Shown piece by piece: positions 4,970 through 8,993 of a stretch of 13,684 bases of DNA; position 1 is the first letter of the stretch; every line of letters starts with the position of its first letter. A program made the position numbers and the translations under genes. The notes beneath the pieces were generated by a model, which was not told the origin of the DNA, searched no databases, and worked only from the letters and a program-made list of their open reading frames with translations. The DNA comes from Methylococcaceae bacterium. GTDB lineage: Bacteria > Pseudomonadota > Gammaproteobacteria > Methylococcales > Methylomonadaceae. The stretch covers positions 1 to 13,684 of the forward strand of contig RFQK01000020.1 in the NCBI GenBank assembly GCA_009925045.1, written 5' to 3'.

Positions 4970-5692
4970 TCACCTCAGTTCTGGCCAATTATCCTGAACA
5001 ACACGGATCAACTTGTATCCATAACCATGGATGGCAACCAGTTTCACATGACTCGTACGACTGTCCAATTTAAGTTTTTGGCGTAAACACCTGATATGAA
5101 CATCTAGGGTACGGCTTAACAAAGTGTTCAGCTCAGATTGATTCCTACCCCATACCGCCAAGACGAGCTGTTTACGAGAAAGTGGACGCTGAAAATTATT
5201 AAAAAAGTAATACGCTAACTCAAATTGCTTAACCGATAAGACTATTTGCTCATTGCTATATCGGACAATTCTTTCAGCGGGATCAAATTGATAACCATGA
5301 AACTCTTTTACAGATCCATAGCCATTCTGAGCATTTGCTCTGCGGTAAATAGCCTCCACCTTAGCCAGAAATATATCGGCTTTGATTGATTTATGCAGAT
5401 AATCATCAGCACCAGCATCAAGCGCCTCTATCATTTCGCACTCAAGAAAGTTATTGACCAAAAACAGAACCGGATCTGGACTAAACAATTTTTCGCGGAT
5501 AAAACGTAAAACATCCAGACTATGGATGCATTGGGTTGTCCATTCCATGATGTAGAAATCATAGTTTGTCTTCGTCAACTCATTCATGAGCGCCGAATTG
5601 GATACAAAACAATACACTCGATGTCTTGGGCACAACAGATCAATCAAAGCAGACGCAACTAATAGATCTGACTCTACTACTGCAATTTCCAT
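4970..5692 (-). CDS. OmpR-family response regulator with degenerate receiver
   Basis: A 240-residue DNA-binding regulator: receiver-like domain (about 1-118), then a winged-helix Trans_reg_C domain (about 130-232). The output domain is intact, with the typical LSVKQFELAYYF (152-163), LSRKQLVLAVWG (171-182), SRTLDVHIRCLRQKL (193-207) and AIHGYGYKL (220-228). The receiver keeps the overall fold (LDAGADDYLHK, conserved Lys 101), but the phosphoacceptor position reads IMEW, placing Glu 50 where Asp is normal. One of the N-terminal acidic pair is Ser 8 (VVESD), the switch Thr/Ser is Val 79, and the Pro after the Lys is Ser. It may therefore act without phosphorylation or be locked in an active-like state; that is inference. 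No histidine kinase is adjacent. The ATG at 5692 has AAGGA six bases upstream. Its target genes cannot be read from the window. Confidence 0.88.
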   Translation of the reverse strand: MEIAVVESDLLVASALIDLLCPRHRVYCFVSNSALMNELTKTNYDFYIMEWTTQCIHSLDVLRFIREKLFSPDPVLFLVNNFLECEMIEALDAGADDYLHKSIKADIFLAKVEAIYRRANAQNGYGSVKEFHGYQFDPAERIVRYSNEQIVLSVKQFELAYYFFNNFQRPLSRKQLVLAVWGRNQSELNTLLSRTLDVHIRCLRQKLKLDSRTSHVKLVAIHGYGYKLIRVVQDNWPELR

Positions 5693-5841: not shown

Positions 5842-6774
5842 CTATCCAAGCAGCGCGTTAATCGATGCAAGTACTGAGGGCAGTTGATTTTGGGCATGAT
5901 CTAACCAGATCGCGTCTTCAATTTTACGCAACCAGGTGAGTTGACGCTTAGCCAGTTGACGACTGGCAAAAATGCTTTGATCGATCATTTCAGGAAATTT
6001 AATATCACCTTGTAAATATTGCCATACCTGTCTGTACCCCACACTCCGCATAGCGGGCATGGACAAATCTAAATCCCCGCGATTGCGCAACTGCATCACT
6101 TCCTCAATCAAGCCATCATTGAGCATGGTATGAAAACGCTGCTCTATTCTGCGGTGTAAAACACTGCGATCGGTGGGCGATAATATGATTTTTAAAAACC
6201 GATAAGGTGATTCATGTTGCTGTTTGAAAAAACTTGATAAAGGCTGTCCGGTAATTGCATACACTTCAAGCGCACGCTGAATACGCTGTGGATCATTCAT
6301 ATGAATTCTGGCAGCAGATTCAGGGTCAATTTGTTGCAAACGCTGATGCAAGGCCTGTTTGCCATCCACCTGCATCTGCTGCTCGAGTAAGGCACGTATT
6401 TCAGGATTACCAGGCGGTAATTGTGCTAAGCCCTCAGTCAATGCGTTAAAGTACAACATCGTACCGCCAGTCAATAGCGGGATTTTATTTTGCGCTAGCA
6501 GAGTTTCAATTAAAGGCATAGCCTGATCCCGAAACTGCCCGGTTGAAAACGATAGACTAGGATCGATGATGTCGATCAAATGATGCGTCAGCCTTGATCT
6601 TTCTGCCAGACTAGGCTTAGCAGTGCCTATATTCATTTCGCGATAGACCAGGGCGGAATCCACGCTGATAATCTCTGTTTGTAGCGCTTCAGCCAAGTCT
6701 AATGAGAATGCTGTCTTACCAGAAGCAGTCGGCCCCATTAATAAAACCACCAAGGGTTTTTGCGACAGTGTCAT
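5842..6774 (-). CDS. miaA: tRNA dimethylallyltransferase
   Basis: Transfers a dimethylallyl group to N6 of A37 in tRNAs reading UNN codons, the first step toward ms2i6A, improving codon reading. The 310-residue protein is of standard length. It has the P-loop GPTASGKT (14-21), the substrate-binding DSALVYREMNIGTAKP (38-53), HHLIDIIDP (64-72), TGGTMLYFNALTEGLA (102-117), NDPQRIQRALEVY (160-172) and the tRNA-binding SVGYRQVWQYL near residue 244, followed by ASRQLAKRQLTWLRK. The start codon overlaps the mutL stop by one base (TAATG), with GGGGA just upstream in mutL, so the two are translationally coupled. The mutL-miaA order is the classical gammaproteobacterial one, but hfq, which usually follows miaA, is absent; the next gene is a response regulator. 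Confidence 0.96.
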   Translation of the reverse strand: MTLSQKPLVVLLMGPTASGKTAFSLDLAEALQTEIISVDSALVYREMNIGTAKPSLAERSRLTHHLIDIIDPSLSFSTGQFRDQAMPLIETLLAQNKIPLLTGGTMLYFNALTEGLAQLPPGNPEIRALLEQQMQVDGKQALHQRLQQIDPESAARIHMNDPQRIQRALEVYAITGQPLSSFFKQQHESPYRFLKIILSPTDRSVLHRRIEQRFHTMLNDGLIEEVMQLRNRGDLDLSMPAMRSVGYRQVWQYLQGDIKFPEMIDQSIFASRQLAKRQLTWLRKIEDAIWLDHAQNQLPSVLASINALLG

Positions 6775-8372
6775 TATTTTCCCCGCATGAAAAAACGGTC
6801 TAACTCTTGATGATTTAACTTAATCCAGGTGGGTCGGCCATGATTACATTGACCGCTACGCTCAGTCAGCTCGATATCACGCAACAAGGCATTCATTTCT
6901 TCAATCGTTAATCGACGCTTAGCGCGCACTGAACCATGACAGGCCATGGTCGCTAACACAGCATTCATGGTTTCCTCAGAGCGGCGACTGCTACCCTCTA
7001 CTGACAAATCAGCCAAGATGTCACGAATTAATTTTTCAACATCAGTTTTACTCAATAAAGCAGGCACCGCTCTTAAAATTAAAGCAGTTGGACCGGAACG
7101 GTTGAGTTCAAACCCCAAGTTCAGCCAAAATTCCGGGTCCTGTTCAACCATTTCTGCTTCACTGGGGTTAACTGCCAACTTGAGTGGCAACAGCAATGGT
7201 TGCGAAACCATGGTTTGCTGGGCGTACTGATGTTTGAGCCGCTCATAACTAATCCGCTCATGCGCAGCATGGGTATCCACCAAGATAATGCCATCAGCCG
7301 TTTCGGCTAAAATGTAAATATTGTGAATATGCGCGATTGCCAATCCCAAAGGTGGGATTGCCTGAACTGCCGATGCCACAACCTCCGTCTCGGGGATTAA
7401 TCTAGAATAGGCCTGCATCTGTTCGGCGATTTGAATTTTGGAAAGCGGATCAGCTCGACCTTCCCTGCTAAAGCGCTGTTGCTGGTAAGCAGCAGGGGCA
7501 TTAATACTTCGCTCTGTACTAAGAGGCAGTTCGGTCTGCTGAATATTGACCTGTTCCAGAATTGGGGAATCAACCGCTAATTCCAACGCACTATTGGGGC
7601 GTTGATCGGCTAATCCTCGATATAAGGCCTGAAATAAAAAATCATGAACTGAACGCCCTTCACGAAAACGCACTTCCATTTTTGTCGGATGAGCATTGAC
7701 ATCAACACTGGCGGGATCCATTTCAAGATATAAGACAAATAAGGGATGGCGACCATGGTAGAGCACATCCTGATAAGCCTGTTTAACGGCATGGGCAATC
7801 AACTTATCTCTGACTAAACGCTGATTCACATAAAAAAACTGCATATCGGCCTGACTACGTGAAAAAGTAGGTTTGGCAACCCAGCCTTTAAGTCGCAAAC
7901 CAGATGCTGAAAATTCAATCGCGATGGCATGTTGCTGAAACTCAGGACCTAAAATCGCTGCCAGACGTTCCAGATGTTCAGCTTCATTTCTGACTGGCTT
8001 TAAATTGAGAACTTCACGTTGATTATGCTGCACCACAAAGCCAATGTCGGTTCTCGCCAAAGCCAAGCGATGAATAAGATTCTCGATATGAGCATATTCA
8101 GTTTTATCTGTTTTTAAGAATTTTCGCCGAGCCGGCGTGTTATAGAAAAGATCACGCACCTCGACCGTTGTGCCTTGTGGATGCGAAGCAGGACTGATTT
8201 CGAATAGCTGCTCACTGCCATCTGCACTCACGCTCCAACCAAGATAGATCTGAGTGGCACCTGCATCAAAGCAGTTTTCGACCAATTCCTTCACCACAGA
8301 AGCCGGTCTTTCAACAACTTCTCCAGCAGCGATCTGGTTAATTAATTGCGGTGGTAATGCTTTTATGCGCAT
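6774..8372 (-). CDS. mutL: MutL with in-frame deletion in the ATPase domain
   Basis: DNA mismatch-repair protein MutL, which couples MutS recognition to downstream excision. The reading frame is open for 532 residues, but family members of this type are near 610. The N-terminus is normal through ELVENCFDAGATQI (29-42), with the ATPase Glu 29 and Asn 33, then jumps at about residue 43 to sequence matching E. coli residues near 119 onward (GWSVSADGSEQ). Roughly 75 residues are missing, including GHKL motif DxGxG, the ATP lid with ATSKI, and GFRGEAL. The rest is complete: LFYNTPARRKF (75-85), the Lys 231 of HPTKMEVRF, a clamp-binding-like QPLLLPL (391-397), and the C-terminal ACHGSVRAKRRL and CNHGRPT. 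There is no endonuclease motif, as in methyl-directed systems. The protein can probably dimerise but should not bind ATP. A true deletion or an assembly error are both possible. Confidence 0.93.
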   Translation of the reverse strand: MRIKALPPQLINQIAAGEVVERPASVVKELVENCFDAGATQIYLGWSVSADGSEQLFEISPASHPQGTTVEVRDLFYNTPARRKFLKTDKTEYAHIENLIHRLALARTDIGFVVQHNQREVLNLKPVRNEAEHLERLAAILGPEFQQHAIAIEFSASGLRLKGWVAKPTFSRSQADMQFFYVNQRLVRDKLIAHAVKQAYQDVLYHGRHPLFVLYLEMDPASVDVNAHPTKMEVRFREGRSVHDFLFQALYRGLADQRPNSALELAVDSPILEQVNIQQTELPLSTERSINAPAAYQQQRFSREGRADPLSKIQIAEQMQAYSRLIPETEVVASAVQAIPPLGLAIAHIHNIYILAETADGIILVDTHAAHERISYERLKHQYAQQTMVSQPLLLPLKLAVNPSEAEMVEQDPEFWLNLGFELNRSGPTALILRAVPALLSKTDVEKLIRDILADLSVEGSSRRSEETMNAVLATMACHGSVRAKRRLTIEEMNALLRDIELTERSGQCNHGRPTWIKLNHQELDRFFMRGK

Positions 8373-8390
8373 AGTGTGAGGTATTCCAAG

Positions 8391-8993
8391 TTAAACAATA
8401 TAGGGACGACGTAATTCGTCCCGATGAATGTATAACCATTGTATGGCGATAATCGGAATGGCCGAGTTTATTGCACCTGATTGCAGCAACTCATAAACTT
8501 CATTAAAACTGAGGGTCGAGACCCGTATATCTTCGTCTTCTTCAAGCAAACCATAAATCCCGCCTATATTGGCGCTATTGACTCGCCCATAAAACAAGCT
8601 CAGCCACTCTGAAGATCCACCCGGTGTGGTAAAAAACTGTTGAATCTGAGTTAATTCCAAAATTTCGCAACCGGCTTCTTCCCTTGCTTCCCGATACGCC
8701 ACCTCTTCAGCGGTTTCACCCTCTTCTATGGCGCCTGCAACAATTTCCAACAACCAAGGATGCTCAACATGCAACAAAGCCCCGACCCTAAACTGCTCGA
8801 TCAACACCACACGATCAAGCACTGGATCATACAACAACACCGCCACACAGGTGCCACGTCTGAACAACTCACGTTTTAGGGGCTTACTCCAACCACCAGC
8901 AAACAGACTGTGTTGCAAAGTAAATTGTTCTAAGGTAAAAAAACCCTTATAGGTTTCTGATCTTTCAAGTATTTTAACGACTAACTGTTTCAT
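8391..8993 (-). CDS. nudF: ADP-ribose pyrophosphatase (Nudix)
   Basis: Hydrolyses ADP-ribose (and related ADP-sugars) to AMP and ribose 5-phosphate, a cytoplasmic housekeeping function. The 200-residue protein has a perfect Nudix box at residues 87-109 (G-x5-E-x7-REAREEAGC), where the Glu residues bind Mg2+. Outside it are the NudF-type N-terminal strand region, EQFRVGALLHVEHPWLLEIVAG before the box, and FFTTPGGSSEWLSLFYG (120-136) after it, the last being characteristic of ADPRases. The ATG overlaps the TGA of the upstream dehydrogenase gene by four bases (ATGA), and the stop is 18 bp before mutL, so it belongs to the dehydrogenase-nudF-mutL-miaA operon. There is no strong Shine-Dalgarno of its own, consistent with coupling. 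Confidence 0.92.
   Translation of the reverse strand: MKQLVVKILERSETYKGFFTLEQFTLQHSLFAGGWSKPLKRELFRRGTCVAVLLYDPVLDRVVLIEQFRVGALLHVEHPWLLEIVAGAIEEGETAEEVAYREAREEAGCEILELTQIQQFFTTPGGSSEWLSLFYGRVNSANIGGIYGLLEEDEDIRVSTLSFNEVYELLQSGAINSAIPIIAIQWLYIHRDELRRPYIV

Follow-up and report, generated by a model that had tools for sequence, protein, structure and literature searches.

The mutL gene of a fragmented methanotroph draft genome is recorded without the segment that encodes the ATP-binding core of its product, and this gap is very likely a local assembly error of a kind that is widespread in the draft, with a mechanism that we infer from sequence comparison. The main ground for this reading is that like cuts hit genes of the draft that have nothing to do with mutL, an essential one included, and appear in none of the comparisons among its relatives. 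The 225 bp gap is thus real in the record but most likely absent from the organism and not a real feature, and the ATP-binding motifs are most likely missing from the record and not from the organism. Throughout, the window means the whole stretch of DNA that was analysed (13,684 nucleotides), which is contig 102 of the draft.

Without its stop codon, the coding part of mutL occupies window positions 6777-8372 on the minus strand and encodes 532 aa (Table 1). The reference for comparison is P0001, a near-identical intact MutL of 607 aa from public metagenome data, in a cluster of 12 member sequences. Window residues 1-44 correspond to the same residues of P0001 and window residues 45-532 to P0001 residues 120-607, with nothing between, and tblastn places the junction at 8241|8240. 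The solved MutL chain 7p8v_A shows the same jump, with query residues 1-44 aligned to chain residues 1-44 and query residue 44 onward to chain residue 119 onward. The first-pass annotation, which had described an in-frame loss of about 75 residues, was right as to size, since exactly 75 residues (45-119) are gone, although its start was off by one or two residues. It had also assigned DxGxG and GFRGEAL, which we take to be GHKL ATP-binding motifs, to the missing piece; the 75 residues of P0001 do include DNGCG and GFRGEAL, and neither motif occurs in the window MutL translation. P0001 is annotated with PF02518 and PF13589, and no Pfam match to the ATPase domain was found in the window protein, which scores 138.5 bits for PF01119 (cut-off 26) and 153.8 bits for PF08676 (cut-off 25). 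The general MutL model TIGR00585 gives 442.7 bits, above its cut-off of 180 and split over two stretches, and the closer model NF000949 gives 685.3, below its cut-off of 750. A motif read by eye in the translation, DTHAAHERISYE, is presumably an endonuclease motif of the DQHAxxExxxxE type. In gene and flanks alike the window MutL resembles the endonuclease-type MutL of Methylomonas and its relatives, P0001 among them, and it differs from the P0001 type in lacking residues 45-119 with their ATP-binding motifs. The remainder of the gene and miaA are intact, as had been annotated. A search of the same draft for a second mutL copy, or for the missing segment elsewhere, found none.

Table 1. Features of the window and of other contigs of the draft, with the DNA lost at each deletion site and the test that detected it
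Feature	Location	Strand	DNA lost	Test	Remarks
mutL reading frame	window 6774..8372	minus	225 bp	1	532 codons and stop; without 75 codons of the ATPase domain
MutL residues 1-44	window 8241..8372	minus			KELVENCFDAGA, presumably the first GHKL motif, kept; 44/44 identical to P0001
mutL junction	window 8240..8241	minus	225 bp		P0001 residues 45-119 gone; edges can share at most 2 nt
Remaining MutL	window 6777..8240	minus			P0001 residues 120-607, 482/488 identical; PF01119 and C-terminal dimerisation domain PF08676
miaA	window 5842..6774	minus			full length by profile match (1-287 of 288); lies immediately downstream of mutL
OmpR-type response regulator	window 4970-5692	minus
mutS	contig 436, 1554-3652	minus	about 320 and 176 bp (two sites)	1	out of frame
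murA	contig 69, 2886-4063	minus	85 bp	1	out of frame
gltB-like gene			262 bp (250 by one relative)	1
gltD-like gene	contig 1, near 5072		147-153 bp	2	in frame
RND-type transporter			365 bp	1	one relative; family with close paralogues
TolC-like protein			154 bp (146 at DNA level)	1	one relative; DNA anchors poor, 18/45 and 22/45
Substrate-binding protein			94 bp	1	one relative
Large membrane protein			316 and 125 bp (two sites)	1	one relative
Unnamed gene			72 bp	2	one relative
Stretch with few matches	contig 180, 1-11932

The named close homologues of this MutL are mostly from Methylomonas, and 24 of the 40 relatives drawn belong to the same genus, which makes a Methylomonas-type methanotroph the most likely host. 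The first-pass annotation had raised the question of a deletion common to close relatives. Such sharing is contradicted by the other genomes of the genus, since in 35 of 36 the MutL match runs across residues 45-119 with enough length to contain them; in the one remaining genome (G043) the match starts only at residue 242 and the segment is not assessable. The closest full-length MutL among the genus genomes is 71% identical (G002), and genome_contigs yields 68% at best.

The source draft comprises 1,998,120 bases in 478 contigs and is rated 83.06% complete with 0.61% contamination. The survey sampled 41 of its contigs (466,908 bases), of which nine read N throughout, leaving 32 readable contigs with 449,960 bases; within these 32, no N was found. 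Besides the window and the mutS contig, contigs were chosen by index (19) or by expected length (20). Open reading frames of at least 120 aa, 477 in all, from stretches of five relatives (G002, G003, G006, G022 and G023) were aligned to the contigs, and the comparable coding sequence came to 88,384 non-overlapping bases on 12 of the 41 contigs. The first test recorded stretches of 75 bp or more lost between one aligned segment and the next, and misses in-frame losses bridged within one alignment; the second recorded gaps of at least 20 residues within one alignment. Gene names other than mutL, mutS and murA were read from the sequences and their neighbours.

In the draft itself, the first test returned 24 rows in 155 comparisons, representing 10 distinct sites, and the second returned seven rows in 160 comparisons, representing two. 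Together these are 12 internal deletions of 72-365 bp in 10 genes, three in frame and nine out of frame, where the second test can by its design return only multiples of three. Excluding the window and the mutS contig leaves nine sites in 73,534 bases, a density of approximately one cut for every 8 kb of coding sequence compared. The same tests applied to the relatives against each other gave no losses, neither in 247 comparisons by the first (73, 68, 37, 34 and 35) nor in 253 by the second (77, 70, 35, 34 and 37); G002 and G003 are likewise drafts and neither shows such cuts. A caveat of faulty assembly, entered in the first-pass annotation, is thereby supported, since the draft shows 11 or more further deletions of this kind, spread over nine other genes, and the five relatives show none. 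In 20 kb of contig 1, picked regardless of content, all five relatives carry 247-262 bp more than the draft at one place and 147-156 bp more at another. There the in-frame loss in the gltD-like gene adjoins the cut gltB-like gene, and a gene caller would keep one gene.

Essential genes were surveyed with 88 E. coli K-12 queries, three of which (proS, murA and alaS) were found on contigs of the draft at the identity asked, and one of the three, murA, is cut; in the control, 16 were found on the G003 stretches with none cut, and none was found on the other four relative sets. The first committed step of peptidoglycan synthesis is catalyzed by MurA, an enzyme that Gram-negative bacteria cannot live without. 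One murA copy was found in the draft, and its loss of 85 bp is 79 bp when measured with the E. coli protein. An intact public MurA of 421 aa, P0121, matches its flanks at 99.1% over 223 residues and 99.4% over 172 residues. If the record were correct, the frameshift in the middle of this single essential gene should leave a walled bacterium unable to live. The ways out are a second murA in the unassembled 17%, which the draft at 83% complete could be missing, or a wall-less lineage, against which P0121 speaks. Both P0001 and P0121 come from other assemblies, and one population could hold both alleles.

The edges of the mutL gap bear on its origin. The codon that follows residue 44 is GGT in the window but encodes D (GAy) in P0001, and the codon that precedes P0001 residue 120 encodes H (CAy), opposite CTT in the window. 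Because these codons differ, the edges can share at most 2 nt if the source strain has the same residues there. The short direct repeat at the deletion ends that the first-pass annotation had proposed to look for is not in evidence by this measure, and a scan of 8100-8400 found no direct repeats, in a region where one copy would have gone with any deletion. Estimates of the mutL edges at the DNA level, made against diverged relatives, give ties of 6 and 10 nt. At that level, eight of nine other sites are fixed within 0-2 nt and one has a 14-nt tie. Since so little is shared at mutL and at those eight sites, repeat collapse, or slippage in the cell, is unlikely. In the proposed mechanism, assembly pieces would have been joined across unassembled stretches, either by a scaffold gap wrongly closed or by placeholder bases dropped, and the bases of those stretches would thereby have vanished from the record. 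The mutL frame would then have been preserved by chance, three of the 12 sites being in frame, and the living organism would most likely carry an ordinary full-length MutL. As stated in the portions of a published account of metagenome-assembled genomes on which we draw, uncorrected gaps and local assembly errors leave public databases with incomplete or incorrect protein-coding genes, and such errors are recognised by joins whose sequence no reads support (PMC7111523). Errors of this class are the closest match to the present case, although clean losses of 72-365 bp are not the pattern described in those portions.

A recent natural in-frame deletion of 225 bp, which would make the strain a mutator with a null and perhaps dominant-negative mutL allele, is a very unlikely reading of the gap, even though the frame is kept and the remaining gene is intact. 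If MutL had truly lost its ATPase core, a mutator would be expected, and the cuts in mutS of the same draft fit a lost mismatch repair system. The search for MutS returned three pieces with parts missing between them and almost no DNA separating them; both losses are seen against six relatives, their sizes agree at 320 and 176 bp by five, and mutS is intact in eight of the eight relatives searched. Loss of mismatch repair as a pathway was accordingly considered, and was dropped once unrelated genes showed like cuts. Eight further genes besides mutL and mutS are cut, murA among them, and a recent natural event of the kind first suggested is also opposed by the scant sharing at the mutL edges and by the intact relatives and P0001. 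The proposal of a mutator strain is unsupported, as like cuts occur elsewhere in the same assembly. Known natural mutL and mutS mutators differ from this case, in which nothing indicates that the living organism has the loss and unrelated genes of the assembly are damaged alike. It is hardly to be expected that a wild methanotroph population maintains a standing mutator with a MutL devoid of its ATP core, an intact nuclease domain and a broken mutS.

True genome decay, for example in a host-bound lineage in which mutL, mutS and the others are real pseudogenes, would suit a small draft (2.0 Mb) with many cut genes, but it is extremely improbable. Neither the draft nor any of the five relatives showed a small frameshift, and the cut genes have well-preserved flanks. 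Internal stops number 6 in 52,361 residues of best alignments, which is not clearly raised against the relatives: the rate lies above that of four (G003, 2 in 30,567; G006, 1 in 20,473; G022, 0 in 20,041; G023, 0 in 20,370) and below that of G002 (7 in 31,673), and some of the draft's stops may come from alignments whose ends extend beyond a cut. Intact MutL and MurA of near-identical sequence are on record, and neither of two small relatives, G002 at 2.3 Mb and G003 at 2.8 Mb, has such cuts. That the short MutL is a working variant without an ATP-binding core is scarcely conceivable, for all that its PF01119 and dimerisation domains are complete and its frame is open, given that the lost segment carries the ATP-binding motifs of the family and is present in 35 of the 36 other genomes of the genus, and that the 120 homologues listed (the best 120 of 8000 scored) are all 598-646 aa long.

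If the cuts are assembly errors, as we consider very probable, claims of gene loss made from this draft would be wrong, and its completeness and contamination ratings do not reveal the cuts. In-frame cases such as mutL are the most deceptive, since gene calling still reports a single gene. A quick test before a loss is accepted from a draft genome is to seek like cuts in other genes of that assembly, both unrelated and essential ones, and to use relatives as the control.

Two minor observations concern other parts of the draft. The OmpR-type response regulator of the window has a receiver domain that scores 27.6 bits, just below the Pfam cut-off of 30.2, and by eye its residue 50 is Glu in place of the expected phosphorylated Asp. 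Contig 180, one of those picked by index, is represented over 11.9 kb by short DNA matches only, in two of five genus relatives, and might be an island specific to its lineage or a contig binned in error.
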